DNA of 64,000 nt from Phototrophicus methaneseepsis (lineage in GTDB: Bacteria; Chloroflexota; Anaerolineae; Aggregatilineales; Phototrophicaceae): contig NZ_CP062983.1 of assembly GCF_015500095.1 (NCBI RefSeq), positions 310,001 to 374,000 of the forward strand. The letters run 5' to 3'. Positions within the stretch are counted from its first letter, which is position 1. Each line of letters opens with the position of its first letter. Of the stretch, positions 12,724 through 49,900 are shown one piece after another. Below the pieces are notes generated by a model, which did not search any database, had not been told where the DNA came from, and saw nothing but the letters and a program-made list of their open reading frames with translations. A program made the position numbers and the translations under genes.

Positions 12724-13023
12724 TCATTCATCTGTGTTGAGTCTTTGTCTAATATGCTTGCTGAAGCGAACTAAAATGCGACGATGATAGCGGTTTGGCA
12801 CAACTTTGTTTCCATTACTATGTTTTAAAATACCAGCATTAGCCCTTCGCTCAATTTCTCTACATTCCATTGTTAGAAAATTCGCCAACTCAATGCGCCC
12901 ACCCGCGACAAGTTCTTCCGTCCATACGTCAATGAGTGTTTCTAAAACCAACTGCACATCCCGATTTTTTAGGCGTGTACGTCGCCCGATTTCGCGTACC
13001 ATCTTGTTTTTGTTCAAACTCAT
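12724..13023 (-). CDS. HU/IHF-family DNA-binding protein
   Basis: This 99-residue protein begins KNKMVREIGRRTRLKNRDVQLVLETLIDVWTEELVAGG, matching the helical half of HU/IHF. The strand half (GRIELANFLTMECREI) follows, and a basic C-terminus could be the DNA-binding arm. Its start overlaps the end of the coupling-protein gene by 4 bp, so it belongs to the mobilisation operon and may bend DNA at the transfer origin. It could also be a general nucleoid protein of the element. Confidence 0.8.
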   Translation of the reverse strand: MSLNKNKMVREIGRRTRLKNRDVQLVLETLIDVWTEELVAGGRIELANFLTMECREIERRANAGILKHSNGNKVVPNRYHRRILVRFSKHIRQRLNTDE

Positions 13024-15689: not shown

Positions 15690-16048
15690 TCACTAGACTC
15701 TTTCAACTCACGGACAGCCTTGATTTGAGCTTGAAGAGATTCCCCATCTTGTTTAGCGGCAATAATAGCTTCGCGCAGATGCTGTTCATCTGAAGCAAGC
15801 AGATAGATGAGAACGTTGAACTGGAAGCCAAGAGCTTCTTCAATCTGGTCGATGCGCTCACGAAATGACCGCTGGAAGTGCTTGCGACTGCCAACAAGGT
15901 CTTCCTGCTCATCCAAGTAGCGACGAATGGCTTCTCGAATAAGGTCAGCTTCAGTGATATTGCGTGGTTTGGTACTGACAATTTGATTTAATCGCTCTGC
16001 CATCTCAGGTGTCATTGAGAGGCTACGACGAATGGATTTTCGTGCCAT
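15686..16048 (-). CDS. ribbon-helix-helix relaxosome accessory protein
   Basis: This 120-residue protein starts with a ribbon-helix-helix domain (residues 5-48: RRSLSMTPEMAERLNQIV, then ADLIREAIRRYLDEQ), followed by a long helical, probably coiled-coil tail. The start has GAGGTG just upstream. Overlap by 4 bp with the relaxase gene supports a MobC/TraJ/TraY-like role at the origin of transfer. The dyad upstream is a plausible autoregulatory site. Confidence 0.75.
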   Translation of the reverse strand: MARKSIRRSLSMTPEMAERLNQIVSTKPRNITEADLIREAIRRYLDEQEDLVGSRKHFQRSFRERIDQIEEALGFQFNVLIYLLASDEQHLREAIIAAKQDGESLQAQIKAVRELKESSD

Positions 16049-16074
16049 TGCACCTCGTATATAATGAACATTGT

Positions 16075-16087
16075 TTCTATTATAGAA
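16075..16087. promoter_or_regulatory. palindrome upstream of the mobilisation operon
   Basis: TTCTAT-T-ATAGAA is a perfect 6-bp inverted repeat 27 bp upstream of the ribbon-helix-helix gene. The gap 16049-16237 between the diverging mobilisation and restriction operons is AT-rich and is where a transfer origin would be expected. No nick-site consensus was recognised. Confidence 0.4.
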
Positions 16088-16237
16088 TGTCGCAAATCAA
16101 AAGAGCTGTATTTTTTCAGAATCTGATATGCAATATTTCAGTTCATTACTCATTTATTCAAAAACACTCGTCATGAAGTTTACGTTAATGTCGATTAAAT
16201 ACTTTCCGACTGAACATAGCTAAAGTAACATATAAAT

Positions 16238-17728
16238 ATGACAATTAATGGACAAGCAAAACTAACACAAACTCAACTAGAATCGCATTTATTTGAAGCT
16301 GCGAATATCTTGCGCGGTCCTGTTGATGCTTCTGATTTCAAGGCATATATTTTTCCGCTTTTGTTTTTCAAACGACTATGTGATGTGTTTGATGAAGAAA
16401 CAAGCGACGCCAAAGCTACTCATGGCGAAGTATTTCCTGAAGATCATCGGTTCAAGATTCCATCAGGATGTCACTGGATTGATGTACGTCATACCGCTTC
16501 CAATTTGGGGAACACGCTAGAATATGCTTTTGGACAAATTCAAAGTGCAAATCCTGATAAGCTGTATCACATATTTGGAGATGCTCAGTGGAGTAACAAA
16601 AGACGCTTATCAGATGCATTGCTCAAGGATCTAGTCGAACATTTTTCGCAGCTTAGATTATCACGTAGTGCAGTTGATCCCGATGTACTGGGAAGAGCAT
16701 ACGAGTATCTCATCAAAAAATTCGCAGACCTGACCAATAAAAAGGCTGGAGAATTTTATACACCCCGTAGTGTTGTCACTTTAATGGTTGATATTCTTGA
16801 CCCAAAGGACACCGATACAGTCTATGATCCTGCCTGCGGAACCGGGGGAATGTTACTGGAAGCTGTTCATCATGTAAAAGAATCTGGCGGCGATATACGT
16901 TTGTTGTTCGGGAGGCTTTACGGGCAGGAAAAAAACCTAACTACATCAAGCATTGCACGCATCAATTTGCTTCTGAACGAGATTGATGACTTCCATATAC
17001 AGCGTGGTGATACACTTCGGCAACCTGCATTCTATGAAGGAGATCAACTCGCTCAATTCGACTGCGTGATCGCAAATCCGCCATTCTCCCTGAAAAATTG
17101 GGGCCACAAAATATGGGAAGCTGATCCCTTTGGACGCAATTTTGCAGGTTTACCCCCCGCGACGAATGGTGACTATGCGTGGATACAACACATGATCAAA
17201 TCCACAGCACCTATCACAGGGCGAACTGCTGTTGTGTTACCTCATGGTGTTTTGTTTCGTATGGGAAAAGAGGGGAAACTTCGTCGCAATATTCTTGAAA
17301 AAGATATGTTGGAAGCGGTGATCGGTTTAGGTCCTAATCTATTCTATGGAACTGGACTATCTGCCTGCATTTTGGTTTTTAGAATGCGTAAAAAGCCGCA
17401 ACGACAAGAGAATGTGATTTTCATTGATGCCTCCGAATTGTATCGCAAAGGTCGAAACCAGAATACTCTCGAATCTGAACACAGGGCGAAGATACTTGAC
17501 TGGTACAAAAACTATCAGAATGTTGAAGGTGCGGTTCAAGTAGTATCAATCAACGATATTGCGGCAAATGATTGGAATTTGAATATTCCTCTATATGTTG
17601 AACCCGTGATTGAAGAAGAAACCATTACTGTAGAAGAAGCTTTGAGCAAATTGAATCAGTCTCTCAATGAGGCTTATGCGGCTGAAGATGCCCTCAAAGA
17701 ACTTTTAATGAAGGCAGGTCTAATTTGA
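16238..17728 (+). CDS. hsdM: type I restriction-modification methylase subunit, first copy
   Basis: This 496-residue N6-adenine methyltransferase subunit has the N-terminal HsdM helical domain (LFEAANILRGPVDASDFK). The SAM-binding motif DPACGTGGML lies near residues 197-206, and the catalytic motif NPPF near residue 281. It is first in a plus-strand operon and overlaps the next gene by 4 bp. The following gene encodes a second, clearly different HsdM, so this operon has two paralogous M subunits rather than one. Confidence 0.95.
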   Translation: MTINGQAKLTQTQLESHLFEAANILRGPVDASDFKAYIFPLLFFKRLCDVFDEETSDAKATHGEVFPEDHRFKIPSGCHWIDVRHTASNLGNTLEYAFGQIQSANPDKLYHIFGDAQWSNKRRLSDALLKDLVEHFSQLRLSRSAVDPDVLGRAYEYLIKKFADLTNKKAGEFYTPRSVVTLMVDILDPKDTDTVYDPACGTGGMLLEAVHHVKESGGDIRLLFGRLYGQEKNLTTSSIARINLLLNEIDDFHIQRGDTLRQPAFYEGDQLAQFDCVIANPPFSLKNWGHKIWEADPFGRNFAGLPPATNGDYAWIQHMIKSTAPITGRTAVVLPHGVLFRMGKEGKLRRNILEKDMLEAVIGLGPNLFYGTGLSACILVFRMRKKPQRQENVIFIDASELYRKGRNQNTLESEHRAKILDWYKNYQNVEGAVQVVSINDIAANDWNLNIPLYVEPVIEEETITVEEALSKLNQSLNEAYAAEDALKELLMKAGLI

Positions 17729-19290
17729 CAACACCGACAATCACACAGTCGGAACTCGAAAACTATCTCTGGGGTGCTGCAACTTTACTCCGAGGGTATA
17801 TTGACGCTGGCGATTACAAACAATTTATTTTCCCGCTTTTATTCTTTAAGCGGCTTTGCGATGTATATGATGAAGAAGCAGAACATGCAAAAGCTGATCA
17901 TGGCGCGGTATTTCGAGAGGATCATTGGCTTGAGTTAGAAATCCCTGACGGATCGCATTGGGATGATGTTCGTCAACAAGCAACAAACGTCGGTATGGCG
18001 ATACAAAGTGCAATGCGAACCATTGAAAGCACTAATCAGGAACTGTTTGGTATTTTTGGCGATGCTCCCTGGACAAACAAACAACGCCTGTCTGACGCGA
18101 CTCTGCGCGACCTAATTGAGCACTTTTCAACACAAGAGTTGTCATTATCCCGCGTTTCAGAAGATATGTTAGGGCAGGCATACGAATATCTCATCAAGAA
18201 ATTCGCCGATGATAGTGGACATACCGCTGCGGAGTTCTACACAAATCGCACAGTTGTACAGCTTATGACAAGGTTGTTGGAACCACAAACAGGTGAGAGC
18301 GTCTATGATCCTACCTGTGGTTCCGGGGGAATGCTTCTTGCAACGGCAATGGAACTGCGAGAACAGGGCAAAGAATTCCGAAATTTACGTCTTTATGGTC
18401 AAGAGATCAATCTCATCACATCAGCAATGGCGCGTATGAATCTGTTTATGCACGGGTTTGAGGATTTTGAGATTATTCGAGGGAATACATTGTCAAATCC
18501 GTACTTTATTCGAGATGATGAATTACGCCAATTTGACATTATATTGGCTAATCCACCCTACTCGATCAAACAGTGGGATCGAGATGCATGGGTAAATGAT
18601 TCTTTCGGGCGTAATTTTCTCGGTGTCCCTCCACAAGGACGTGCAGATTATGCTTTCCTACAGCACATTCTTAAAAGCCTGAAGCCAATGAGTGGGCGTG
18701 CTGCCATCTTGTTTCCACATGGTGTATTGTTTCGTGAAGAAGAACGGGATATGCGGACTCGTTTGGTCGAAGATTTCGATTTGGTGGAGTGTGTAATTGG
18801 GTTAGGACCAAACCTATTTTACAATTCTCCTATGGAAGCCTGTATTATGATTTGCCGACGGAATAAAGATTCCAAACGACAAAATCACATCTTATTTATC
18901 AATGCACTAGATCTTGTCACCCGTCGTCAAGCACAGAGTTTTCTTGAACCCGAACATATTGAGGAAATTGTGCAGGCATACCGTCAATTCGAGGATATTG
19001 AGAACTTCGCTAAAGTTGTCAAAGTTGACGAAATTCTTAAAAATCGTGGCAGTTTGAGTATTCAACTCTACGTTCGATCTTCTCTATCTGACAATGAAGA
19101 CGAAAGACCGTTGGATGCTGTCATAGAAGATTGGCAGACAAGTTCAAAGAATTTACGTCAGTCTATGAGCGAGTTGTTCAAAAAACTCGAATATAAACCG
19201 GAAACTGATCAATCCTCTAAAAATGGCGTAGCCCCTAAGAATATGATCGAGGAAATACGAGACACAAATTCAGAGAAAGTTGAGGAATGA
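17725..19290 (+). CDS. hsdM: type I restriction-modification methylase subunit, second copy
   Basis: This 521-residue paralogue of the preceding protein starts at TTG 17725 overlapping the upstream stop (TTGA). It has the same N-terminal domain (LWGAATLLRGYIDAGDYK), the SAM motif DPTCGSGGML near residue 195 and the catalytic motif NPPY near residue 277. The catalytic-motif variant (NPPY rather than NPPF), the extra C-terminal tail of about 40 residues and the divergence throughout argue against a recent duplication. A hetero-methylase (M1-M2-S) is a possible consequence. It overlaps the next ORF by 4 bp. Confidence 0.95.
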   Translation: MTTPTITQSELENYLWGAATLLRGYIDAGDYKQFIFPLLFFKRLCDVYDEEAEHAKADHGAVFREDHWLELEIPDGSHWDDVRQQATNVGMAIQSAMRTIESTNQELFGIFGDAPWTNKQRLSDATLRDLIEHFSTQELSLSRVSEDMLGQAYEYLIKKFADDSGHTAAEFYTNRTVVQLMTRLLEPQTGESVYDPTCGSGGMLLATAMELREQGKEFRNLRLYGQEINLITSAMARMNLFMHGFEDFEIIRGNTLSNPYFIRDDELRQFDIILANPPYSIKQWDRDAWVNDSFGRNFLGVPPQGRADYAFLQHILKSLKPMSGRAAILFPHGVLFREEERDMRTRLVEDFDLVECVIGLGPNLFYNSPMEACIMICRRNKDSKRQNHILFINALDLVTRRQAQSFLEPEHIEEIVQAYRQFEDIENFAKVVKVDEILKNRGSLSIQLYVRSSLSDNEDERPLDAVIEDWQTSSKNLRQSMSELFKKLEYKPETDQSSKNGVAPKNMIEEIRDTNSEKVEE

Positions 19291-19940
19291 GTTTGAAATA
19301 TCCTCTTACAGAAACAGCTAAAGCCACTGCAAGAGAATTAGCTAAAGCGTGGACTGCGGGTCAAGTCCCTCAGCTAATTCCAATGTTTGAAATACGCAAT
19401 GATGGTGGTGTGTGGGATACAGGTTTTAAACGAAAAATAGAGGCAGAACTTGACGCACCGCATACTTCAATTTTGCTTGAACTTGCTGAATTCAATCTTG
19501 TTCGTGTGATCCCTATCGAAAATCAAAGTGAGAGTGTTTTTGAAGTTCTCCTACTCCAAGAGCTAAAAAATGCAGTAGAAAACGACTTCGAGGTATCAGA
19601 TTACTTCATCACGATGAATGCAGTAGGAAACATTATCGTCAATAGCACGACAGGTCCAGTACAGGGTGTAGGGTATAACACTGGTATTCTGCATCAGAAT
19701 GTAGAGCAGCTTGCCGATTTTATGAATGCAACGCTTGGCGATGCTTTTTTGCAGAGTCAAACGGAGTTAAAGAACGCTATTGATGCCCTTCGTGAATCAA
19801 ATGAAGCGAACCAGCAATCAAAACTTGGCAAAGTTGTTTCTGAACTTGGAAATTGCCTACAACATGGAGCAAATACGGCGGCAGTAGTTGCCGCATTAAC
19901 CGCTGCTGCGCCATTTATTCAACAGTTGTTGGGTGGATAA
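19287..19940 (+). CDS. unknown protein inside the type I RM operon
   Basis: This 217-residue protein is coupled to hsdM2 by an ATGA overlap and ends 2 nt before hsdS. An N-terminal alpha/beta part (about residues 1-105) is followed by a distinctive IIVNSTTGPVQGVGYNTG segment near 112-130, a helical region and an Ala-rich hydrophobic C-terminus (TAAVVAALTAAAPFIQQLL). I do not recognise the family. Its position suggests an accessory, regulatory or inhibitor role in the restriction system, or an independent effector carried within the operon. Confidence 0.7.
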   Translation: MSLKYPLTETAKATARELAKAWTAGQVPQLIPMFEIRNDGGVWDTGFKRKIEAELDAPHTSILLELAEFNLVRVIPIENQSESVFEVLLLQELKNAVENDFEVSDYFITMNAVGNIIVNSTTGPVQGVGYNTGILHQNVEQLADFMNATLGDAFLQSQTELKNAIDALRESNEANQQSKLGKVVSELGNCLQHGANTAAVVAALTAAAPFIQQLLGG

Positions 19941-19942
19941 AT

Positions 19943-21172
19943 ATGAGTCAACAATCCACACTTCCAAGCGGATGGGATGTCCATCGTTTTGATGAAATTG
20001 CAGAGAGTATCAATGAGCGAATACTACCTGAAGATGCAGATGGCTTACTATATGTTGGCTTAGAACATCTGGAACCAGAATCACTGAAAATTCGTCAGTG
20101 GGGTACTCCTGACGATGTTGATGCACAAAAGCTACGTTTTTATCCAGGTGACATTATTTTTGGTAAACGTCGTTTTTATCAACGGAAATTAGCTGTAGCA
20201 GAATTTGATGGAATATGCTCAGCTCATGCAATGGTATTACGTGCCAAATCAGATGTAGTATTGCCAGAGTTTTTCCCCTTTTTTATGCAAAGTGAAGAAT
20301 TCTTCAGACGAGCGATGTCAATCTCGGTAGGATCGCTATCACCGACTATCAACTGGAGGACACTAGCCCGACAAAAGTTTGCTCTGCCACCAATGGACGA
20401 ACAACAACGAATTGCTGAGATTTTGTGGTCAGTAGAAAAAACATATCGAAGTTATGATGTTTCACTAAGTGATGCTATAAGAGCTAAAGACTCTTTACTC
20501 ACAAGACTTACACTTCAAGGTCAAGATGTTCACGATTTTCAACATAGCAAAATAGGGGACATTCCCAAGCATTGGCGATTAGCCACCATAGGTGATGTGC
20601 TTGAATCAAGCCAATATGGACTTTCAGTCCGGGCTGATGACGAGGGGAAATATCCTATTTTCAGGATGATGAATATTGAAGATGGTGTGATTGTTGAAAA
20701 CGACATGAAATATGTTGATCTGACCCCAAGTGAATTTGATAGTTATAGTTTAATGCCGGGCGATATTTTATTTAACAGAACTAACAGTATTGACCTTGTA
20801 GGCAAAGTGGGTATCTACAGATTAGAAGGAAATCACGTTTTTGCTTCCTATTTGATTAGGTTACGGGCTGACCGAGATCATATTATACCTGAGTACATGA
20901 ATTACTATTTGAACTCAAAGTTAGGTCAGCATCAAATCCGACGCTATATAACTGCTGGTGTCAGTCAAGCAAATGTTAATGCAACAAATTTACAACGTGT
21001 TTTAATTCCTCTACCACCTATTGAAGAACAAAATATCGCTGTGAATACACTGGCAGAATTTGACGATAATATTCTGCATATTCGAGAACATCTAGAAGAA
21101 TTACAAGCCTTAAAAAGGTACTTAATATCATCAATTTTAGAAAATTATCAGATCGAGGCGCTTCATGTTTAA
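19943..21172 (+). CDS. hsdS: type I restriction-modification specificity subunit
   Basis: This 409-residue protein has two target-recognition domains, each opened by an LPSGW / IPKHW strand (residues 7-11 and about 205). Each is closed by a conserved helix with the PPxxEQxxIA pattern (PPMDEQQRIAEIL; PPIEEQNIAVNTL). Such a protein recognises a bipartite DNA target and assembles with HsdM and HsdR. The start at 19943 (MSQQSTLPSGW) is chosen because the region upstream is the previous gene in another frame. The stop overlaps the hsdR start by 8 bp. Confidence 0.93.
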   Translation: MSQQSTLPSGWDVHRFDEIAESINERILPEDADGLLYVGLEHLEPESLKIRQWGTPDDVDAQKLRFYPGDIIFGKRRFYQRKLAVAEFDGICSAHAMVLRAKSDVVLPEFFPFFMQSEEFFRRAMSISVGSLSPTINWRTLARQKFALPPMDEQQRIAEILWSVEKTYRSYDVSLSDAIRAKDSLLTRLTLQGQDVHDFQHSKIGDIPKHWRLATIGDVLESSQYGLSVRADDEGKYPIFRMMNIEDGVIVENDMKYVDLTPSEFDSYSLMPGDILFNRTNSIDLVGKVGIYRLEGNHVFASYLIRLRADRDHIIPEYMNYYLNSKLGQHQIRRYITAGVSQANVNATNLQRVLIPLPPIEEQNIAVNTLAEFDDNILHIREHLEELQALKRYLISSILENYQIEALHV

Positions 21173-24095
21173 CGAAGCCAACAGCGTAGAAGCATTTGTA
21201 CTGGATATTCTTGTTCATCAGTTGGGATGGGAATTTATTCCAGCAAAAGAATTGGGTCGCAAAATTGATGATGTTTTTCTCATGGGAGAACTCATTGATG
21301 CACTTACCCGTCTCAATCCAGAGATCGCCGCTCATCCAGAATATGCCGATGATGTTATTCATCATCTCAATGCAATTTTGCTCTCTGTGCAGAGCGATGG
21401 TCTTGTGCGGGCTAACGAGCACTTCACAGAATGGCTGCGGGACGATCTCACTATGCCTTTCGGAGAGAACAATGATCACGTACCTGTTCGCCTTATTGAT
21501 TTCAAAGACCTGACAAATAATCGATACATCGTTACTCAACAGGTGACTTTCAAACCTGCGAAGGTTGAAAAACGATTCGATATTGTATTGTATGTGAACG
21601 GTATTCCACTTGTTGTTGGTGAAGCGAAGACCCCAACACGGGAAGCTATTAGCTGGTTTGATGGTGCGGAACAAATTCAGAAATACGAAGAAACCGTACC
21701 CAGCTTTTTCGTCCCTAACCTATTTTCGTTTGCTACCGAAGGCAAAACTTACCGCTATGGTTCTGTGCGTATGCCGCTTGATCTGTGGGGACCATGGCGC
21801 GATGAGGATGATGATCGTTACCTTGATGGACTAGAAGCTGTGCAAGCATCTGTTGAGGGTATGTTCCGAAAAGAAGTCCTGCTCGATATTCAACGCTACT
21901 TCACAGTATTCTCGGCATCCAAACACCGCAAAGTCAAAATTATCTGTCGATACCAGCAGTATCAAGGCGCAAATAAAATCGTTGAGCGTGTTCGGCTCGG
22001 ACTTAAACTCAATCAGGCATTACGCGGACTAATCTGGCATTTTCAGGGATCGGGTAAATCTTTATTGATGGTATTCGCGGCTCAAAAGCTACGTCTTGAT
22101 CCAGAGCTGAAAAATCCTACCGTTCTAGTAGTTGTAGATCGTATAGACCTCGATACCCAAATCAGTAATACCTTCAATGCGGCGGATATCCCAAATACAG
22201 TCAGTACAGACAGTCGTGATGAACTTCAGCGATGGCTGGCTCAGGATATGAGAAAAATCATTATCACGACAATATATAAATTCCGTGAATCGAATAGTAT
22301 TCTAAATGATCGTTCAAATATCATCGTTCTGGTTGATGAAGCACACCGTACTCAGGAAGGTGATTTGGGTAATCAGATGCGAGATGCACTACCCAATGCC
22401 TTTTTATTCGGATTGACAGGTACTCCCATCAATAAACGTGACCGTAACACATTCTGGGCTTTCGGAGCAGAGCATGATGAAGGAGGATACCTCAGTCGTT
22501 ATTCCTTTGAGGATAGTATTCGTGATGAAGCCACCTTGCCTCTTCATTTTGAGGCACGGTTAATTGAACTACGTATAGATCGAGAAGCAATTGATGAAGC
22601 CTATGCCAATATCACAGGGCATTTAACGGAGGAAGATCAAGCCAACCTTGCAAAGATGGCAGGCAAGATGTCTGTACTCATCAAAACTAAAGAGCGAGTA
22701 CAACGCATCGTTGCAGATATTGTTCAACATTTTCGGCGACAAATTGAACCAAATGGCTTTAAGGCAATGATCGTTGCATTTGACCGTGAAGCATGTGTCA
22801 TGTACAAGTCAGAGTTGGACAAACACCTCTCACCCGAAGCGAGTGAAATTATCATGACGGTCAATAGTGGTGAAGATGAGTATAAGCCATATGATCGCTC
22901 CAAAACTGACGAGGAAGACATGCTCGATAACTTCCGTGATCCCGCTCATCCTCTAAAAGTCATTGTTGTCACGTCTAAATTGCTCACTGGTTTTGATGCT
23001 CCTATTTTGCAAGCAATGTATCTTGATAAACCTATTAAAGAACATAATTTACTACAGGCAATTTGTAGGACAAATCGCGTTTATCCAAGATCAGATGATC
23101 GTCCTGCAAAGACACATGGTCTCATCGTAGATTACATTGGCGTTTTTGATGAGGTCGCTAGGTCGCTTACAATCGTTGATGAAGAAATTAGGCGAGTTGT
23201 TGAAAATATTGATAAACTGCGTGATCAACTGTCACCCGCTGTAGAAAAATGCCTTCAATTTTTCCCTGATGTAGATCGAACAATAGGTGGATACGAAGGA
23301 CTTATGGCGGCACAACAGTGTCTTCCAAATAACGATATAAGAGATCAATTTGCTGCGGATTTTTCTGTACTTGCACGATTGTGGGAAGCTCTTTCTCCTG
23401 ATCCAGTAATAGTGCCACACCGGGAGGATTATCGTTGGTTATCTCAAGTGTATCAATCAGTCAAACCACCGAGTGGGCAAGGTAAGCTACTGTGGCACGC
23501 ATTAGGTACTAAAACACTTGAATTAATCCATGAGAATGTTCATGTAGAGACAGTTCGTGATGATCTTGATACATTAGTGATGGATGCACAATTTCTAGAA
23601 GATTTGCTTAGTGGAAAAAACCCTGAGCAGGCGAAAATCCTTGAATTTAAGATTATTGCTCGATTGCAAAAGCACAAAAATGATCCCCAGTTTATTGCAT
23701 TAGGTTATCGATTAGAAAAGTTAAGAGAAAAACATGAACGAGGTTTGGTAGCAAGTATTGAATTTTTGAAGACGTTGCTGGATATTGCGAAAGACGTTGT
23801 ACGAGCAGAAAAATCAGTCGAAACTGTGATTGCTGCTCGTGAGGAAGAAGGAATAGCGGCTCTAACGGAGTTGCTTAACGCTATCAAAGGCGATGAAACA
23901 CCCGTAATGGTGGAGCGCATTGTACAGGATATTGATGAAATTGTTCGAGTGGTTAGATTTCCAGGATGGCAACAAACTAATGCTGGTAAAAGAGAGGTGA
24001 AGCGTTCTTTACGGGGAGCACTACAAAAGTACCAGCTTCATAAGGATCAAGACCTCTTTGACAAAGCCTACGAGTACATTGAAGAATACTACTAA
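21165..24095 (+). CDS. hsdR: type I restriction endonuclease/translocase subunit
   Basis: This 976-residue motor subunit cuts unmodified DNA after ATP-driven translocation. The N-terminal nuclease core shows D-x10-GEAK (near residues 134-147). The helicase part has FQGSGKS (Walker A, about 295), VDEAH (about 390), LTGTP (about 419) and the C-terminal lobe with TGFDAP. A C-terminal helical region contacts the methylase. Length is typical. It is the last gene of the five-gene operon and is followed by the hairpin island. Confidence 0.95.
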   Translation: MFNEANSVEAFVLDILVHQLGWEFIPAKELGRKIDDVFLMGELIDALTRLNPEIAAHPEYADDVIHHLNAILLSVQSDGLVRANEHFTEWLRDDLTMPFGENNDHVPVRLIDFKDLTNNRYIVTQQVTFKPAKVEKRFDIVLYVNGIPLVVGEAKTPTREAISWFDGAEQIQKYEETVPSFFVPNLFSFATEGKTYRYGSVRMPLDLWGPWRDEDDDRYLDGLEAVQASVEGMFRKEVLLDIQRYFTVFSASKHRKVKIICRYQQYQGANKIVERVRLGLKLNQALRGLIWHFQGSGKSLLMVFAAQKLRLDPELKNPTVLVVVDRIDLDTQISNTFNAADIPNTVSTDSRDELQRWLAQDMRKIIITTIYKFRESNSILNDRSNIIVLVDEAHRTQEGDLGNQMRDALPNAFLFGLTGTPINKRDRNTFWAFGAEHDEGGYLSRYSFEDSIRDEATLPLHFEARLIELRIDREAIDEAYANITGHLTEEDQANLAKMAGKMSVLIKTKERVQRIVADIVQHFRRQIEPNGFKAMIVAFDREACVMYKSELDKHLSPEASEIIMTVNSGEDEYKPYDRSKTDEEDMLDNFRDPAHPLKVIVVTSKLLTGFDAPILQAMYLDKPIKEHNLLQAICRTNRVYPRSDDRPAKTHGLIVDYIGVFDEVARSLTIVDEEIRRVVENIDKLRDQLSPAVEKCLQFFPDVDRTIGGYEGLMAAQQCLPNNDIRDQFAADFSVLARLWEALSPDPVIVPHREDYRWLSQVYQSVKPPSGQGKLLWHALGTKTLELIHENVHVETVRDDLDTLVMDAQFLEDLLSGKNPEQAKILEFKIIARLQKHKNDPQFIALGYRLEKLREKHERGLVASIEFLKTLLDIAKDVVRAEKSVETVIAAREEEGIAALTELLNAIKGDETPVMVERIVQDIDEIVRVVRFPGWQQTNAGKREVKRSLRGALQKYQLHKDQDLFDKAYEYIEEYY

Positions 24096-24111
24096 CGCAT
24101 TTATGAAATAG

Positions 24112-24479
24112 GGTTGGCGACGACCAACCTTGAGCAATGTTGATAAATTGCATAGCAAATGTCCAACATTGCAGAACGCACGTAATGTGCGTTCTGTCGG
24201 TGTGGTGTACCACACCGACATGCTGACCAGCACGTTGAGGCATGGTCAGCGGTGCGTCACGTAAGCGTGGCGTACCAGCCCCTCCGGCTTGAGGAGCGAG
24301 CTTGTTTTAGCTCGCTCTCTCCCTCAGCCGCGACAGACAGCCATTTTCAATGGGCACTATGTGTTCCACACAGGCTGTCTGACACGCGATAAGCTGAGGG
24401 AGATCGGCGTCCGTAGGACGCGGCACTGCTGCCATGCAGTGCCATCACCGATGATGTGTTCACAACACTGTCATCGGTG
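24112..24479 (+). repeat. intergenic island of about twelve consecutive hairpins
   Basis: No gene lies between hsdR and 24508. Instead nearly every base belongs to inverted repeats: GGTTGG/CCAACC (24112-24129), GCAATGTTG/CAACATTGC (24134-24172), AGAACGCAC/GTGCGTTCT (24173-24195), GTCGGTGTGG/CCACACCGAC (24196-24219), GCTGACCA/TGGTCAGC (24222-24250) and an 11-bp stem with two G-T wobbles (24251-24276). Then come GAGCGAGCT/AGCTCGCTC (24294-24317), a compound stem TCTCCCTCAGC/GCTGAGGGAGA enclosing AGACAGCC/GGCTGTCT (24318-24403), GCGTCC/GGACGC (24407-24421), GGCACTGC/GCAGTGCC (24422-24443) and CACCGATGA/TCATCGGTG (24446-24479). The wobbles pair only if the plus strand is single-stranded, as RNA or ssDNA. 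Confidence 0.85.
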
Positions 24480-24508
24480 CAAAAACGCACATTCTGACGT
24501 AAGACACT

Positions 24509-24969
24509 TCAAGATGACTTCGTATGGTCTTTGGTCAAGCGGATAAAAATCGTTGCATTACGCTTCTTCTTAGGATTATCCCAGCGCGTTTGGAAGGTCT
24601 TAGGATGTGCCTGCACCAAACGACGTAGACCCTTGTAACCAAACGACTTGATGTTGAGGTCAGGGAAATAACGACGCAGGATGAGTGCAACTTCCTGAAG
24701 CTCTCGCCAATTGTAATACAGGTCAGCTCGTAGTCTTTTCCATGTTCCCGAATGATGCGAAGTCGCAAATTCTCCAATTCTGAATCAGGAGTACCGAAAG
24801 CTAGACCAGACCGATCCCAATCACGAGACCGGATCATGTCACGTTCGAGTTTGGCGTAGCAAGTATCACATAAACCTAAATCATTGACTTGGGAGGGCAA
24901 ATCACAACCAGCACAGATTTCGCCGTTCCAGTTTTCCCAGTAGTTATCCTCATAATGTTCGTATGTCAT
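24509..24969 (-). pseudogene. zinc-ribbon plus OST-HTH-like protein, broken by a frameshift
   Basis: The first frame (from ATG 24969) encodes a zinc-ribbon (CAGCDLPSQ, then GLCDTCYAKLERDM) and a helical linker ending near KDYELT at about 24715. There the sense continues in another frame as YYNWRELQEVALILRRYFPD, then KSFGYKGLRRLVQAHP, then ATIFIRLTKDHTKSS, with a stop at 24509. The second part resembles OST-HTH/LOTUS RNA-binding domains. One missing base would restore a protein of about 153 residues. The first frame alone ends at 24535 with unnatural sequence. Either the gene is inactivated, the base is an assembly error, or frameshifting is programmed. Confidence 0.7.
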
Positions 24970-25110: not shown

Positions 25111-25485
25111 TTAGAAGGGAATTTCGTCCGGGGCAACTTCGGGTTCGCCATTTTCGACACGTTCCAGCAGGATCAGACGATCAACATCCATGTCGAGACT
25201 GGCTTGAGGATTGCCGTTCTGGTCAACCCATGCACTCGGGCGTAACCACGAACCCGTTGCCTGAATTAGGACTCCGCGTTTCACATAGCTGGTCGCCACT
25301 GATGCGAGATTTTGCCAGCAGTTCACACGCACCCAGAGCGTTTGTTGCTGTCCACCACCATTGGTGCGATTGACTGCGATGGAGAAGGTGGCAACTTGTT
25401 TTTCGCCAGTGCTGGTTTGTACGGTGCGTACCTGTGGTTCGCTTCCAACGTGTCCGGTCAATGTGATACCAATATGCGTTCCCAT
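25111..25485 (-). CDS. ssb: single-stranded DNA-binding protein
   Basis: This 124-residue OB-fold protein starts MGTHIGITLTGHVGSEPQVR and contains the SSB core FSIAVNR, then LWVRVNCWQNLASVATSYVKRGVLI. The C-terminal acidic tail ends DEIPF, which in SSBs recruits replication and repair partners. It is short for a chromosomal SSB but typical of plasmid-borne ones. AGGAGGT lies upstream. It is a single-gene unit bounded by a strong terminator and, upstream, by a palindrome cluster. Confidence 0.95.
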   Translation of the reverse strand: MGTHIGITLTGHVGSEPQVRTVQTSTGEKQVATFSIAVNRTNGGGQQQTLWVRVNCWQNLASVATSYVKRGVLIQATGSWLRPSAWVDQNGNPQASLDMDVDRLILLERVENGEPEVAPDEIPF

Positions 25486-27337: not shown

Positions 27338-28204
27338 TTACGCGGTTTTACGTTGGTGTGCTTGTACAGCATCTAGTGTTTCTTGTGGAAGTAGCGATGG
27401 TTGAATATCACTCAACCAGAAGTCTTTGCGGAAACTGTAGCCTGTGACAGCTTCGATGCGGCAGTATTCACGATAGGTATCAGGATTATGGATAGCACCA
27501 TTGATGAGGTCATTGAGGCTTGCCAGCACACATAACGCGCAAGACAAGCGCTGATTGGGTTGTTCCAGACGATAAGCAGGATGAGCAATATCGCCATGTT
27601 TGCGGATGCAGTCCCATACATCACGCTCTGTCCAATTGTGAATGGGCAACCAATCATATACAAAACGTCCCTTTGTTGGTGCAGTACAATCCTGGCGTGT
27701 TTTGAAGGTTGCTTTCTTTGAACGTGCATTGCTTTCAAGAGCGCGTATGCCCATTGAGCAAATCAGATTGCCTGTCGGAAATGTGTTGCGTATCCAACGC
27801 GAGATCGGGGAACGCTTCATATCCGACGTACAAAAACGTATTTTTGCAGAAGGCCAACAGGGACGGGATGGATCTTTGTAGTAACGTTGCCAGATGCGGT
27901 CAATCAGGTCGCCATGCGTCCAGTGTACTACATGCAATTCAACGCTTTTGCGTTTAGCGAGGTCTCGCACATACTCCGGTGTTTGATGCCATTCCACACG
28001 TTCGCCCAAATCTGCGTGCAACATTACAGCATCACCCGTCCAGCCTTCGCGCTCCCTCATTTCAAGCAAATGATGGCTCATAGCATCACTGTCTTTACCG
28101 CCAGAAACAGACAGCACCAATGTCGCGCCATTGCGAAGCAGGGATAATGCATCCCGTGTATCTGCTTCCGCTTCTAGCTCGAACAACTTGAGTTGATGGC
28201 TCAT
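27338..28204 (-). CDS. PP-loop ATPase of the PAPS-reductase/CysH-like family
   Basis: This 288-residue protein has the pyrophosphatase loop SGGKDSDAM near residues 35-43. It also has the family segments LHADLG (substrate strand), RFCTSDMKRSP and SCALCVLAS. Cysteines in RPCWPSAKIRFC and LSCALC form a possible iron-sulphur or zinc site. Such enzymes adenylate a substrate for sulphur transfer or reduction. The start overlaps the ThiF-like gene by 4 bp, so the two are translationally coupled. In Urm1/TtuB-type pathways an E1-like enzyme, a ubiquitin-like carrier and a PP-loop enzyme cooperate, and all three are present in this operon. The substrate is unknown. Confidence 0.85.
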   Translation of the reverse strand: MSHQLKLFELEAEADTRDALSLLRNGATLVLSVSGGKDSDAMSHHLLEMREREGWTGDAVMLHADLGERVEWHQTPEYVRDLAKRKSVELHVVHWTHGDLIDRIWQRYYKDPSRPCWPSAKIRFCTSDMKRSPISRWIRNTFPTGNLICSMGIRALESNARSKKATFKTRQDCTAPTKGRFVYDWLPIHNWTERDVWDCIRKHGDIAHPAYRLEQPNQRLSCALCVLASLNDLINGAIHNPDTYREYCRIEAVTGYSFRKDFWLSDIQPSLLPQETLDAVQAHQRKTA

Positions 28205-28965
28205 AAATACGCCTCCAACTCATCACGACAAACGGCAAGTGAGCGAATCGCCATGCTGTCGGCACTGATATAGCTTAGAAAGTTATAAATGGGCTGGCGA
28301 TAGAGCAACTTATAGAGGTACTGTCCGACGACGGTTGCCATCCAATCATTGATGAGCAAATCCTGCTCACCGATTGCAACCAATTCCGCGCAGGACAGAT
28401 TTTCCGGTTGCGGTTCGGGCTGTGGTTCAGGTTCAAGTAAGGCGGGAAACAGCAAACCTTCTTTGGGCAAGTAGCGCACTTTTTCATCATCCAGATAGCG
28501 TCGGATGAGGTCAGGATCATCGCTATTGGACAGTACGACCTGCCCGGCATCCTTATGGTTACCGGATGAAATGTGAATACCATCAATTTTGTGAATCTCA
28601 CGCCGAGCGAGATGGTTATCCACACAACTGATGACGATATTGGAGCCGTAGCGATCAAAATGTCGCTTCGCATCAACAGCATCGGGAATCCAGCGTGTGG
28701 CGAGTCCAAGTGCATAGTTGAGACGCTTGCCCACAATTTCAGCTTTGTATTGTCCGACATCGCAAGGCGCGAAGAGTTGCCGTCCGACATTTTTCTCTTC
28801 TACTTTGTCGGGATCAATCAGTAGAATATCGGGCGCATGACGACGATTACGTTGCATATCATACACAATCCGTCCGACTATGCGGGCAACCTGACTGCCT
28901 GTGCCGCCTAAGCCAACGATGGTGATGCTTTTGAGATAATGATTGGGATCAAAATACTGCATCAT
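28201..28965 (-). CDS. PRTRC-system ThiF/E1-like adenylating enzyme
   Basis: This 254-residue E1-like protein has the nucleotide loop VGLGGTGSQVAR (residues 18-29) and the ILLIDPDKVEEKNVGRQLF segment with the conserved Asp and Arg of ThiF/MoeB/E1 enzymes. SCVDNHLARREI follows. Such proteins activate the C-terminus of ubiquitin-like carriers. A small PRTRC C-like protein with a C-terminal glycine is encoded in the same operon at 30710. The gene overlaps both neighbours by 4 bp. The family member expected in PRTRC clusters is this ThiF protein. Confidence 0.9.
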   Translation of the reverse strand: MMQYFDPNHYLKSITIVGLGGTGSQVARIVGRIVYDMQRNRRHAPDILLIDPDKVEEKNVGRQLFAPCDVGQYKAEIVGKRLNYALGLATRWIPDAVDAKRHFDRYGSNIVISCVDNHLARREIHKIDGIHISSGNHKDAGQVVLSNSDDPDLIRRYLDDEKVRYLPKEGLLFPALLEPEPQPEPQPENLSCAELVAIGEQDLLINDWMATVVGQYLYKLLYRQPIYNFLSYISADSMAIRSLAVCRDELEAYL

Positions 28966-29669
28966 GATTTGTCTCCAATTGCTTGCGCCAATGTTTTGTC
29001 TGCTGAAATGAGGTCACGGCGTGGATAGACACGTGCCTTGCGACCTTCCAGTTCAATCAACATCTTGCGAATATCCTGCGGAAAACTGGCAGATTTTCCT
29101 GAACAGGCGTGGTCTCCAAAGGGGCTACCAAGTAACATCGACCAATCTACTACGAGTGAACCACTACTGAGCGCATCATCACTAACGCGCTGCACCGTTC
29201 CCCAACAAATCGAAGCGGAGTTGAAAACATTGGGTAGTGGGCAACGGAAAAGTTTCGCATCAAGCGAGGTTGGACGACCTTTGACGGCATAGACCTGATA
29301 TTGAGGGGTGTTATTGTCCGTCGTGGTGCGAATCATGAGCAGATCAGGCAAGGGTACACGCATGGCGGTATCCGAGCCATCCAGCCAGATACCTGTCTTG
29401 CAACGTTTGCGGAAGCCAACCACCGTGCGCTTGACACCATCCTGACGCACCATCAGGGTATCGCCATCCAGCAAGCCTGTATCAAAACCAACTTTAGCGG
29501 CAAGTACCATCGCCACCTGCTGCGGGTCTACCGGGTATTCTGTGACCGTTTCGCCTTCGCGTTTACGTAAGACACAACCATAGGAATAAAAATCGAGCGA
29601 GAGAGCAGGCTGCTCACTCAGGGCAGATTGCAAGATCGACCCATTTAAGTCGAATGTTTGGGGCATCAT
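28962..29669 (-). CDS. PRTRC-system protein B-like
   Basis: This 235-residue protein starts at ATG 29669 (MMPQTFDLNG), chosen because the frame upstream lies inside the preceding gene and a GAAAGG site precedes this ATG. Segments VYAVKGRPTSLDAKLFRCPLPNV and CWGTVQRV fit PRTRC protein B, and the place next to ThiF matches the usual PRTRC order. Biochemical function is unknown. It overlaps the upstream gene by 56 bp and the ThiF gene by 4 bp. Confidence 0.8.
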   Translation of the reverse strand: MMPQTFDLNGSILQSALSEQPALSLDFYSYGCVLRKREGETVTEYPVDPQQVAMVLAAKVGFDTGLLDGDTLMVRQDGVKRTVVGFRKRCKTGIWLDGSDTAMRVPLPDLLMIRTTTDNNTPQYQVYAVKGRPTSLDAKLFRCPLPNVFNSASICWGTVQRVSDDALSSGSLVVDWSMLLGSPFGDHACSGKSASFPQDIRKMLIELEGRKARVYPRRDLISADKTLAQAIGDKS

Positions 29670-30447
29670 TGTTCTTGCCTTTCTTCTGAATTGCTTTGTA
29701 AATTCGGTGAATGTTGTCTTGCATCGCCTGCATGACAGCAGGTTCGGAGGTAAGCCAGTACAATCCCGTGAGAACATCGCCCATGATTTCGTCAGCTTCT
29801 TCAATCATCACACGGGCAAAAGCGAGATCATTCGTTTCCCATGCAAGCGGTTCGACTTCCATCATCAATTCCGCATCCCAATCGCAAATGGAATTGTTCG
29901 TTGCTGATGTCAACCAGAGTAGCCCCCATGCCACCTGCTGATATTGTTCTTCGGGGCGTTTAGCTAAATCAGTGGCAATTATTTCAGCGGCGGTATAGAC
30001 ACAATCAGGTATCGTCATGTGATAAGGATTCGCTTCGGGAGAAATACCAAAACATGCCAGAATGGGAATGACTTCAGGATGGGTTGTGTAGAAATCAGCA
30101 TCGTTCAGTTCAACACCGTAAGCAGGAAGTGGAATACCGTAAGGTAGATATTCGAGGTTATCCAGTGGGATACCTGTATTGGAGATGCCTTCGCAGATAA
30201 GCTGATCAACCGTAGCGTAAGTCGCACCCTGGCGCAGTTTGTCGATGGCATCCACGTAGAGATCAGGAAAAAGCTGGCGTGTAACCACCAGTGCCGCACT
30301 CAAGATGCCATCTGGATCGTGATAAAAATCCTCATCATATCCACGCCACAAGGGATCCAACCAGCAAACAGCTTGCGCGAGACAGAGTAACGAATCACTC
30401 TGCATCGCCTGATTGAGGAAGGTATAGGTCTGCAAAAGATCGTTCAT
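29614..30447 (-). CDS. PRTRC-system protein F-like (by position)
   Basis: This 277-residue acidic, mainly helical protein starts at ATG 30447, where it overlaps the upstream stop by 4 bp. The longer frame to 30525 lies inside that gene. Its place between the protein C-like and B-like genes is where PRTRC protein F normally sits, and size is compatible, but I see no diagnostic motif. No JAB-protease (PRTRC A) gene is present. Confidence 0.65.
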   Translation of the reverse strand: MNDLLQTYTFLNQAMQSDSLLCLAQAVCWLDPLWRGYDEDFYHDPDGILSAALVVTRQLFPDLYVDAIDKLRQGATYATVDQLICEGISNTGIPLDNLEYLPYGIPLPAYGVELNDADFYTTHPEVIPILACFGISPEANPYHMTIPDCVYTAAEIIATDLAKRPEEQYQQVAWGLLWLTSATNNSICDWDAELMMEVEPLAWETNDLAFARVMIEEADEIMGDVLTGLYWLTSEPAVMQAMQDNIHRIYKAIQKKGKNNDAPNIRLKWVDLAICPE

Positions 30448-31642: not shown

Positions 31643-32398
31643 TTAAATGTAAAGCCCGCCATAATCAGCGGGCTGAATTCCTAAAGTGAGACAGATGTCT
31701 TTCAGCAAGATCGAACCGCAACGAAAACAATTTCCATAACCTGTTCTTGTGTTGAATCCAAAACTGGGATGACGGTCATCGTGCTGATGCTGGTGTGGAT
31801 AGAGGCAATGACCACTCAACCAATCGCCGCGTCCGACATAACCCATGTGAAGCAAATGATCGGAAACGACTTGCAGTAATGCTGGATTGAGCGTATTTCC
31901 TGCTCGATGCTGGCGTATTGGCTGTCGTGTTCGTTGAGGAGTTAACTTTTTCGTCGGACGTGGCAGAAGATGTTCAAATGCTGTTGCGGAATAGTAGTTG
32001 TTCTGCTGTTCAACAATGTAGCAAAATGCGTTGTCGCGCTGTGGCTTGCTATTCCGACTGCCGGGTAAGCGCAGCGAATTAACCACGCTCAAAGCATCTC
32101 CACCAGCCATTCGTTGCAATCCTCGCAGGATGTTGCGTGCCAGCTTCATGTCAGACAGCGGTTCATCCAGCCACCAGTAAGCATGATAACCACCGCCTGT
32201 AAAGGTGATGCACGAAGGTCGCGGTTGGATTGTCTGCAAGCGATGGAGCGTTGCCTCATCTGCGTTATCCACATCAACAAAGACAGCAGGCAGAGCCAGA
32301 ATATCTGACTCTCTGCCACGTTGATAACGGCTCAAGCCTTGTTTGCGTAAACCTATCGCCACAAATGCACCCCAGCCCAGTTGATTGGTTTCCATCAA
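31643..32398 (-). CDS. RepB-like archaeo-eukaryotic-type DNA primase, N-terminus lacking a start codon
   Basis: The conserved core is PAVFVDVDNADEATL (catalytic acidic residues), then ITFTGGGYHAYWWLDEP and SLRLPGSRN. A C-terminal zinc knuckle (HPSFGF, then GNCFRCG) suits priming for plasmid replication. The first standard start is ATG 32398. However, the same frame stays open and protein-like upstream to about 32563, including LTAIHPDGKHRTPSRHIPLD, which matches what RepB-like primases have before the core. No ATG, GTG or TTG opens this extension. It may be read by frameshift from the methylase-helicase gene or from a non-standard start. Confidence 0.8.
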   Translation of the reverse strand: MMETNQLGWGAFVAIGLRKQGLSRYQRGRESDILALPAVFVDVDNADEATLHRLQTIQPRPSCITFTGGGYHAYWWLDEPLSDMKLARNILRGLQRMAGGDALSVVNSLRLPGSRNSKPQRDNAFCYIVEQQNNYYSATAFEHLLPRPTKKLTPQRTRQPIRQHRAGNTLNPALLQVVSDHLLHMGYVGRGDWLSGHCLYPHQHQHDDRHPSFGFNTRTGYGNCFRCGSILLKDICLTLGIQPADYGGLYI

Positions 32399-32568: not shown

Positions 32569-35500
32569 TTAGAACATTGCTAGCTGGGTGGGCAATTCTT
32601 CCTCTGTGCTTTGTTTCCGCACTAAAGGGCGCTTTGGGACAGATACCTCAGTTGGCTCATCTCCCGGAATTGCCATCAGGTCGATTTTTCCACGCTTCCG
32701 CTTCTTGTCTGACTGCCGTGATGTGTGCTTTGCGGATGCCTGTAGTTCTTCATCTTGCATATCCTGTAACTTCTCGAAGATGCCGAGCTTGATGGGGGTG
32801 AGTCCCAACGCCTGTTTCGCCAGATCAACAATGGTCGCGGCGCTTTCGTCCTCACAACCCATGAAAACAAAGCGATGTTGTTTCAGCCAGCCACGAACAT
32901 GGCGTACCATACTCTCTTCGTGAACCGGATACTGACTAAAGTCCGGGTCGCGCATCCCAATGACTTTGTAAGTTTCATCATCATTTTGCACACCATCGGT
33001 CAGGATCGTTAGCAGTTTTGCCTGTAACTTCGCCCGTTTCTTGTCGTCATGAATCAGGTGTACGGTATCCAGATAACGTGTGACATATCGATGCAATTTG
33101 CCTGTCCCATCTGAGGACTTAGCGACAATTTCTCGAATTGGAGACGTATCTTCTTCAACCAGAACACCACCGAGTTCAATCGCAACCTGCACCAGTGGAT
33201 CATCCTGGGTTACGGTGATTTCAGGCTCATCGTCTGCGACTTCGACATTCCAGTACGCCATATCTTCGGCATCAATTTCACTCTGTCCCGCACTGACCTT
33301 GAACATCTCACTGGGATCGAGCAAGGCTTCTTCTTTGGCAATGGCATTCAACAAGGCTTCCTCAAACCCAGATTCCTGTTCCGTCAGGGCATCCAGACCT
33401 GTTAAACCCACATCACCGGTGAGCAATTTCGCGGCACGTTGTTTACGACTCATGAGCTGGACAGCTGTATGCTCCATCGTCCCTTCCGCAAAAATGTAGT
33501 AGGTCTTACATTGCTCATGGGTCTGATTCAAGCGATAGGCGCGGGCGGCAGCTTGCATCATTGTCCCCAAGTTGAACGTGATCTCGTGAAAGATCAGTGT
33601 CGGACTGAACAGCAGGTCGAGGCCAGTTTTGACTAACTCAGGGTTGGTGATGAGTACGTTCATGCCTTTTGCGCGTTCGGCTTCAATCACTTTTTCACGG
33701 CGTTCGGCACTGACAGTATTCTTCAGGATGTAGGGTATAGCACCCGGAACATGCTTGCGAATCAGCGACTCAATGCGAGGTTGAATGTCTTTGGTGGCTG
33801 TCTGACGCAGATACACGACACAGGGTCGATTGTTTGCCAGTTCCTCTGTCAGCAGGTCAATCAATGCCTGTTCTTTGGCGTAGACACGATCCTCACCGTA
33901 AGACGGAATGCGTGTAACCACATGCGGACGCTTCTCACCGGTGATCGGGTGTTTGATGTTGTGGATGACCTCTGTAGGACGAAACGCCGCATTGATCCAG
34001 CCCATGCTCCACTGAAGATACGACCCGCGAAAAGTCGTGTCGCCCTCCCAGCGCCGCTGAATTAAATAATCTTTGAGCAAGGAACGGGTACGATCATACT
34101 GGTCATAGGTGTCGGTATCCATCTCTACCGGAAGTGCAACTTCTTCATAGTCCGGTAAATTTTTACCTAAATCCGCCAAACTGAAGAAAATCGCATGATC
34201 CAGCACCTCAGCCACCAGCAAGGGGGAAATTCCGGGAGCCTCCTGATACGGGCGTTCATAGGTCGATGTACCCGTGAAAGCACCTGTGTTGGTATCGTAG
34301 GTCGGACGTTCTTCGACAACCTGTTCGCGCACACCCATGTCCGACACCCAGCTTGACTCAGCCCGTCCGCGCTGTTTGCCAGCACCCTCCAGCACACTCT
34401 GGAAACGGCTTGAGCCGCGTTCTTTACGACTGAAACGGTCTGCACCGCCCCAGTTGTAGCGTTGTCTGACACGCGGATTCAAATGGTATTCAATGTTGAA
34501 AAGCGAGGACGATTTACCATTGAAGGGTGTGCCCGTCATCGCCAGCACCTTCTGCGCCATGCCTGCCAATCTGCCGAATGACTCACCATTTCCTGTATCC
34601 CCGTTCGCCGCCTCATGGATTTCATCCCAGACCAACAAGTAGACCCGATCTGGATAGACTTTTTTGAGGTATTCATCGAGACGATAACGCGGATTCTTGG
34701 GGGCATATTTATGTCCGGGTTTCGGACGTGAACCGCGATCCCGTGCGTCCTGCCATAAGGGTGTCTGACAAACGGCACAGGCACGTTTGCCCGATTTGAG
34801 CCAGCTTTCTGAAGCAGGCACACTGGTTCCCTTACGTTCCTGCATGACGGTACAACCACAATGCGGACATTTTGGCACGCGCTGTTTGACGATGCGCTGA
34901 TTCGGTTCATAGCCTTCAGGTGTCGGCTGCTTGTGTCGCCATAGGGCAACTGCTTCGTTGCGCCAGATAACAGCGACTTCACGACTGCAACCCAGCTTGG
35001 TCAGATCACGTTTGATGAGACCGATTTTCGGTACATCCGCCCCGATTTTGGTGGCACGTGTCATGAAGCGTGCCACATCTTCATGTCGGTCAAGCCGCTC
35101 TATAACACTGTTCGGATGAATACTGAGCAACTCACGTTTCCACTTATCAATCAAGTGCGGTGGTGCAACAATCAATACTACCTGATCTGCCCGCATATCA
35201 TCGGCGATTTTCTGGACTGCACCCGATGCAATAGTGATTGCCGCAGTACCTCCCATCGCCGTTTTGCCCACACCCATTTGGCCCACCAGCAGGATGCTAT
35301 CGCGTTTTTCAAAGCCCTTCGTAATCGCGGCGATGACGTGTTTTTGAGCAGCGTAGAGCGGATATTTGCCCTTTAACTTGACTCTATCCAGAAAACGGCG
35401 GAGACCATTCATGTCGAACTGATAGGCTGGCGAAAACTTGTTGTTGAGATAAGTTGCTAATGCCTTTTTGTTGCTGGTGATGAACTCCAACAGTGCATCA

Positions 35501-49888: not shown

Positions 49889-49900
49889 ATGACAACCTCT

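Follow-up and report, generated by a model that had tools for sequence, protein, structure and literature searches.

An array of adjacent stem-loops in the bacterium Phototrophicus methaneseepsis (Chloroflexota), at positions 24112–24479 of the window (the whole 64,000-nucleotide stretch of contig NZ_CP062983.1 that was analysed), is a real, conserved and strand-specific structured element, tied to a family of relaxase-like proteins. The favoured reading, to which a probability of roughly one half is given, is that the array is a cis-acting single-stranded DNA (ssDNA) element of the transfer origin or leading region of integrative conjugative or mobilizable elements.

The gap that holds the array begins after the hsdR stop codon (24095), and its minimum free energy (MFE) fold contains about 12 adjacent stem-loops, in keeping with the preliminary description, which had seen consecutive hairpins filling the gap and had proposed a comparison with shuffled sequence. 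Against 100 dinucleotide shuffles (RNAfold), the plus-strand energy proved far lower (-208.8 kcal/mol, compared with -129.2 ± 5.9; z -13.4), and the minus strand gave -199.2 kcal/mol (z -11.4), with 0 of 100 shuffles as good in either case. The nested compound stem at 24318–24403 and the wobble-bearing stem at 24251–24276, both singled out beforehand, are present in the MFE fold at these positions. The view of the twelve hairpins as one array holds in so far as the fold is real, but the two leftmost hairpins (24112–24129 and 24134–24172) lie outside the conserved family: the match to the covariance model starts at 24173, and the conserved part of the array runs from about 24173 to 24479. The parts of the array are as follows.

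24112–24129, plus strand: 5′ hairpin, folded in the MFE structure with 6 bp; the covariance-model match (24173–24315) does not reach it.
24134–24172, plus strand: second hairpin (inverted repeat I1), with 18-nt arms that are 78% complementary.
24173–24195, plus strand: H2, 9 bp, in which 9 of 9 pairs change on both sides; it corresponds to helices 1 and 2 of the covariation count (90.6% and 83.1% of cells paired, respectively).
24196–24219, plus strand: H3, 10 bp with a 4-nt loop; 10 of 10 pairs change on both sides, 97.0% of cells paired.
24222–24250, plus strand: H4, an 8-bp outer stem, a bulge and inner pairs; 8 of 8 pairs change on both sides, 95.8% paired.
24251–24276, plus strand: H5, the 11-bp wobble stem; 9 of 11 pairs change on both sides, 83.1% paired.
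24277–24296, plus strand: linker, with a CTCC/GGAG helix (24282–24285 with 24293–24296) in which 4 of 4 pairs change on both sides.
Within the linker, plus strand: possible H-type pseudoknot, GCC (24278–24280) with GGC (24286–24288), strictly counted, 92 of the 100 distinct rows have these letters; GGC is almost invariant, hence covariation cannot be read there.
24296–24315, plus strand: H6, a stem with a T-rich loop, 100% paired; 3 of 5 pairs change on both sides and 2 never vary.
24318–24403, plus strand: H7, a long closing helix around inner hairpins, from the MFE fold and a count of closing runs over the copies.
24407–24421, plus strand: H8, 6 bp with a 3-nt loop, from the MFE fold, with similar hairpins in the folds of 24 copies.
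24422–24443, plus strand: H9, 8 bp, from the MFE fold, with similar hairpins in the folds of 24 copies.
24446–24479, plus strand: H10, from the MFE fold, and found only in some of the closest relatives.

The 5′ hairpin, which a terminator scan flagged as a terminator-like site on the minus strand, probably belongs to the hsdR side and is without conservation in the family, and at the place of the second hairpin other copies hold an unrelated hairpin or none. H8 and H9 are supported by folds and by a hairpin count over the copies, rather than by pair-by-pair covariation. The unpaired letters that hardly vary are GGC and GA in the loop of the linker, and TTTA in that of H6; H6 is a candidate protein-recognition or nick site.

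The check for covariation in homologues, which the preliminary description had put forward, was carried out on 101 aligned copies (100 distinct rows). For 43 of the model's 47 pairs, both sides vary somewhere among these copies, and 92.8% of cells pair, in an alignment fitted to the model, which favours pairing. The covariation score was 0.579, compared with 0.181 ± 0.005 for shuffles (0 of 500 as high), which ignore relatedness, and 0.039–0.088 for slid partners, a control that keeps relatedness and still leaves a wide gap. The refuting outcomes named beforehand for the sequence, a lack of covariation or a fold energy as high as that of shuffles, were thus not observed. The final alignment (A4) was given 100 loci, one per copy as far as possible, and leaves out L072 (a weak match, with the array between the RHH and relaxase matches), L073 (no array), L153 and L164–L170, as well as R1 matches below 46.7 bits in the family scan. 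H7, followed through the 94 copies with enough DNA, has a longest Watson-Crick closing run of 9.5 pairs on average, compared with 4.8 in shuffles; the run reaches at least 8 in 61 of the 94 copies and in 4 of 470 shuffles, with 65 distinct 5′ arms. Further perfect hairpins lie beyond H7 (mean 1.4, compared with 0.14 in shuffles), with at least two in 48 of 88 copies. Fold-energy z was taken for one copy in every four (26 of 101), against mononucleotide shuffles, and had a median of -7.3 with a range from -17.1 to -1.6.

The wobbles of the 24251–24276 stem had been taken to imply selection on a folded plus strand, and the family bears this out. The 101 copies contain 277 G.T cells and 64 A.C cells, of which 28 belong to a single pair that fits poorly; the corresponding ratios are 63:4 in H3 and 44:6 in H4. 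Independently of any alignment, the plus strand folds better in 93 of 101 cores with RNA parameters (mean advantage 7.3 kcal/mol), while flanking windows favour the opposite strand, plus being better in 143 of 350 and 204 of 521; with DNA parameters the figures are 89 of 101 cores and 126 of 350 flanking controls. Because of the covariation and of the strand bias in both G.T pairs and fold energy, selection is seen to act on a single folded plus strand, which RNA and ssDNA would fit alike. Chance or base composition as the origin of the array is ruled out by the shuffle z values, the covariation and the strand-preference controls.

The array family recurs within one bacterial order, and is absent from Rfam. 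The window's genome (5.63 Mb) holds two array paralogues at 70–72% identity, and BLAST matches to the array were found in 9 of 61 genomes, the window's own included. A first covariance model (143-nt core, seven copies, alignment A3) was positive in 33 of 98 genomes of the window's family, and a second, built on 101 copies, in 44 of 154 genomes of the order (E up to 1e-6); in a class sample of 298 evenly drawn genomes there were 8 positives, all 8 from the window's own order. The array is often multicopy, with up to 11 matches per genome. Scanning named genomes with a pattern derived from the linker returned 14 stretches, 11 of them from Anaerolineae, Anaerolineaceae, Aggregatilineales or Chloroflexi contigs; the matches in Sinomonas, Thermoplasmata and Belnapia (L035, L037, L039) were taken for chance, with a model match no better than E 0.96. 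The same kind of scan gave 0 matches in IMG/VR, and BLASTN of 24100–24490 gave none (E up to 1e-5) in 72,556 plasmid and 50,697 phage records, so that similarity to a known plasmid single-strand origin (sso) was not seen among the plasmids. No tRNA or tmRNA was found in the window. A literature search by title and abstract, in which subscription journals were thinly covered, returned no description of the array.

The genes that give the array its setting in the window are listed below.

13020–15011, minus strand: type IV coupling protein (T4CP; PF02534, E 5e-34).
15024–15689, minus strand: relaxase-like protein, with an HTH-type histidine motif and invariant Y and H residues.
15686–16048, minus strand: ribbon-helix-helix (RHH) accessory protein, ahead of the relaxase gene (RHH_1, E 0.0079, under the cut-off).
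16238–24095, plus strand: type I restriction-modification cargo (two hsdM, a 217-aa ORF, hsdS and hsdR), between RHH and the array.
25111–25485, minus strand: SSB gene, reading toward the array, at the start of the presumed leading region.
31643–32398, minus strand: RepB-like primase gene (PF16793, E 1.3e-4, under the cut-off at 22.3 against 24.3 bits).

By its motif the relaxase-like protein looks like an HUH relaxase, the invariant H and Y residues being presumably of that type. The family has no Pfam match above the cut-off (weak TrwC in 1 of 14 members and Rep_OBD in 3 of 14) and no PDB relative by sequence. It was matched once, by the window's own copy, in a phylum sample of 400 genomes, and has so far been seen in one order. 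Within the 154 genomes of that order the array was found in 44, the relaxase in 50 and both in 42 (Fisher 4e-27, for genomes that are not independent); two genomes have the array without the relaxase (G073, G075) and eight the reverse. The window's genome also carries a third, partial relaxase (L200, G000:C1:4329448-4329963), with no array match nearby.

A relaxase lies within 2 kb of 59 of the 101 copies, in all 59 to the left of the array and on the opposite strand, such that the array is divergently upstream of the RHH-relaxase operon; an RHH match within 2 kb, likewise always left and opposite, is found in 59 copies, nearly the same set. This geometry is shared by relaxases 33–73% identical to the window's, and in window-type elements without inserted cargo the RHH start is 97–181 nt from the core. 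On the other side, 25 of 26 SSB matches are to the right and read toward the array. The 42 copies with no relaxase that near comprise 16 with SSB on the right (6 of the 16 with a relaxase farther left), 5 with a short left flank and no SSB, and 21 with neither in the flanks examined. In L115, additional short relaxase-like pieces lie to the right. Together with the covariation and the strand bias, this position beside relaxase and RHH operons upholds the statement that the array does not look like REP elements or ordinary terminators; a REP/BIME repeat was rejected as an explanation, as the arms vary with compensation and 59 of the 101 copies have a relaxase no more than 2 kb away.

The left, opposite-strand geometry is common to three groups of elements: the window's kind, with T4CP and SSB; a smaller kind, with a relaxase 33–39% identical to the window's, an RHH gene and, mostly, a match to a RepB-like primase; and a third, divergent kind that bears T4CP. 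Among 20 further relaxase loci of the order, three (L196–L198) hold strong arrays. A permissive scan of the other 17 gave weak opposite-strand matches in ten (L181, L182, L184, L185, L187, L189, L190, L191, L194, L195; E 2e-9 to 2e-3) and one same-strand match in L192 (E 0.05). A fold scan reaching up to 2.6 kb upstream of 18 of these relaxases (160-nt windows, 20 shuffles each) found a window with z of -4 or lower in six (L185, L187, L189, L191, L194, L196). The array lies next to the relaxase/accessory operon, as an origin of transfer (oriT) should, although 6 of the 10 weak matches (L181, L182, L184, L187, L189, L190) are 3′ of the relaxase gene instead; the 59 strong copies keep to the geometry strictly, but it is not universal for the relaxase family.

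Several observations concern the RHH gene and additional modules. Ahead of the RHH gene, the window has at 16049–16200 a -10-like box and CTGnAAnTTnCAG-like repeats that are loosely conserved; similar repeats were seen by eye upstream of RHH in L089, L075, L081 and others. They stay with RHH where cargo separates it from the array, and are perhaps operators of the RHH protein. In L071, L080, L082 and L085 (G069, G072, G087) a second module of relaxase, RHH and primase genes, smaller and with an array of its own, adjoins the g3477-topoisomerase end of the conjugative element; in five pairs the second array is ~13–22 kb from the first in the same orientation, and a further second-module array, at G069:C6:164187, has the opposite orientation.

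Between the RHH gene and the array, and sometimes beyond it, cargo is found: in the RHH-array gap in the window, L075, L077, L086, L088, L089 and others, and between array and SSB in L083. Cargo is rich in restriction-modification and helicase families, the 62 proteins (picked by eye from 74 ORFs, with backbone and edge genes left out) including ResIII (12), SWI2_SNF2 (8), N6_Mtase (7), HSDR_N (7) and Eco57I (6). In 24 loci, the closest ORF on the left (150 aa or longer) runs in the same direction as the array 18 times and diverges from it 5 times; the remaining locus, at a contig edge, has none. Co-directional ORFs end within 82 nt of the core start (24173 in the window) in 12 of the 24 loci, the window included, the distance being 8 nt in L102 and 13 nt in L031; in 7 of 24 the left cargo ends 8–39 nt from the core.

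Other genes of the window have their own points of interest. The tandem hsdM-type methyltransferases at 16238–19290 (496 and 521 aa, 47% identical) belong to one type I operon, in which the 217-aa ORF stands between the second hsdM and hsdS. The SSB-side operon contains adjacent ThiF and Prok-E2_D genes (28201–29804), a pair that we take to resemble a PRTRC-type cassette and whose relatives adjoin in L075, L077, L079, L089, L090 and L038. A 1340-aa protein (32569–36591) joins a DUF6094 methyltransferase to a ResIII/SNF2-type helicase, and has relatives in like elements. Metal-related genes occupy 52–2013, 46499–52329 and 53053–55485, and include a flavin reductase with heavy-metal domains, two E1-E2 ATPases (weak HMA matches), two ZIP transporters and a Na/Ca exchanger.

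The closeness with which cargo abuts the array raises the question of whether the array is itself a recombination site or hotspot at which defence cassettes are exchanged, either attC-like or by homology between arrays. An apparent case comes from one metagenome-assembled genome (MAG) with three arrays (L030, L031, L036): starting at the linker, all 231 of 231 bases agree, yet the restriction or helicase genes alongside differ, and one of the arrays departs from the others leftwards from a point within it. The three contigs all end at the same point after the array, which suggests repeated cassette-like units. Yet the arms vary while pairing is kept, which leaves little arm sequence for a recombinase, homologous exchange does not need strand-specific folding, and many copies have the array directly beside RHH with no cargo. 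Recombination is therefore an improbable function, and exchange between arrays may be a by-product.

For the favoured ssDNA element, the site itself is informative: between the RHH-relaxase operon and the SSB operon is the expected place of oriT and the leading region. Leading genes of plasmids, including those for SSBs, are described as being oriented such that they can be transcribed from the first-transferred strand (PMC11541004). With the SSB operon reading toward the array, the plus strand would be the transferred strand (T-strand), and the 25 of 26 SSB orientations are those expected if the plus strand enters first. The T-strand so assigned is also the strand that folds, and the ssDNA element is preferred for this reason. 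Moreover, the array persists with RHH, the stop of co-directional cargo (12 of 24) or a divergent cargo gene (5 of 24) as its left neighbour, and so seems to need no upstream sequence common to all copies. Features of an sso were also found, namely strand-specific secondary structure and linkage to a gene for a relaxase or Rep protein (a relaxase within 2 kb in 59 of 101 copies; the other 42 have none so close).

The mechanism that this would entail begins with the relaxase nicking and unwinding the element, with displacement of the plus strand; as this strand entered the recipient, the array would be close to its front. The array, as ssDNA, would fold into its fixed set of hairpins, and the nearly invariant linker/H6 block may be read by a protein, whether the relaxase, the RepB-like primase or host RNA polymerase. 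The folded array could then nucleate relaxosome recognition, prime complementary-strand synthesis in the manner of an sso or single-strand initiation site (ssi), or both. No nic site was found, the invariant TTTA of H6 being at most a candidate.

A related thought is that the array serves as an Frpo-type single-stranded promoter for early leading-region genes. Its leading-region-like position with SSB nearby would suit such a role, and ssDNA stem-loops are known to act as promoters (PMC9849209, PMC11541004). SSB, however, converges on the array in 25 of 26 cases, so the array is not upstream of it, and a consensus scan found no sigma-70-like pair inside the window array; the one pair in 24000–24700 is at 24058–24087, outside the array, in a linear scan that covers unfolded sequence only. 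A promoter of this type is thus highly improbable.

The stronger challenge to the ssDNA element comes from RNA. The preliminary description had offered a structured noncoding RNA and an ssDNA transfer signal as a pair, and covariation, strand bias and the place beside relaxase/RHH operons agree with that pairing. In the RNA version, which is possible if less favoured, the mobile element would transcribe the array, from a dedicated promoter or as the 3′ end of cargo mRNAs, into a structured noncoding RNA of ~300 nt, which perhaps acts as a factor of the relaxosome or of transfer. The G.T tolerance of H3 and H4 is as expected of G-U pairs in RNA, and the multibranch H7, the possible pseudoknot and the near-invariant loops look RNA-like, all of which count against ssDNA. 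So do the far fewer important stem-loops of ICEBs1 sso1 (three), the 42 copies with no relaxase within 2 kb, the members of the relaxase family with no clear array upstream, and a terminator-like plus-strand site inside the window array (24286–24302), flagged by a looser scan. Covarying structure on one strand, the mark of a new structured noncoding RNA, was found, read-through from the co-directional left ORF (18 of 24 loci) would transcribe the array, and there is a precedent in SGI1, which needs a self-encoded sRNA (PMC9299015). Against RNA stand the loci in which cargo 8–39 nt from the core leaves little room for a promoter, the five in which cargo reads away from the array, and the fact that terminator-like plus-strand ends occur in just 2 of 101 copies. 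No Rfam family reached its gathering score in the window, and a known Rfam RNA was accordingly rejected; the sub-threshold matches from permissive scans were three in the array region (E 1.3–6) and a single one outside it (E 0.75), each with a snoRNA or lncRNA family.

Motif searches did little to separate the two molecules. GNRA tetraloops are not clearly enriched (6 of 111, compared with 4 of 35 in flanks and 3 of 8 in a 16S control), which counts against RNA, and a promoter scan of the 59 RHH-adjacent copies gave no signal, and neither did its positive control on the RHH side. GNA triloops, considered as a sign of DNA, occur in 16 of 102 loops on the plus strand, 17 of 102 on the minus strand and 4 of 31 in flanks, and were dropped owing to the like figures for the minus strand and flanks. 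The fuller proposal, that a ~300-nt structured RNA lying divergent from a new relaxase family is the RNA part of conjugative machinery, as relaxosome scaffold or transfer factor, in the conjugative and mobilizable elements of one order, is doubtful.

The array, with more than 100 copies, clear covariation and a linked relaxase family without a Pfam match above the cut-off, poses the question of RNA or ssDNA sharply, and either answer would be useful. A DNA element would add a new and uncommonly elaborate form to the known single-strand origins, and an RNA in conjugation would be the greater surprise. The conversion of the transferred strand of integrative conjugative elements (ICEs) to duplex DNA, on which the array bears, is poorly known, the 2015 paper on the ICEBs1 sso stating that virtually nothing was known of it for any ICE (PMC4595007). 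In addition, the array can serve to trace conjugative elements among Chloroflexota that have not been cultured.

Several known systems share features with the array. Its place divergently upstream of an RHH-relaxase operon is that of inverted-repeat oriTs. Typical oriTs have one to a few inverted repeats. The oriT of SGI1 has three (PMC9299015), whereas a covarying array of such size was not met in the searches made. Frpo and ssi sites are, like the array, folded sites in leading-region ssDNA with SSB genes nearby (PMC9849209, PMC11541004), but are described as upstream of the genes they serve, whereas SSB converges on the array, in which the scan detected no -35/-10 pair. The sgm-sRNA of SGI1, whose functional part is encoded between mpsA and oriT and is needed for mobilization (PMC9299015), is similarly an element-encoded factor between a relaxase-like gene and oriT; it is reported to act as RNA, whereas the array's molecule, judged from sequence, may be RNA or ssDNA, and MpsA and MpsB are tyrosine-recombinase-like, whereas the protein linked to the array is HUH-relaxase-like by motif. 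A close likeness in situation may be drawn with sso1 of ICEBs1, a functional, orientation-specific set of stem-loops formed in ssDNA beside the relaxase gene of an ICE (PMC4595007). The important stem-loops of sso1 are given there as three, whereas the array, known from its sequence, has 9–10 helices, a long compound stem and a nearly invariant linker.
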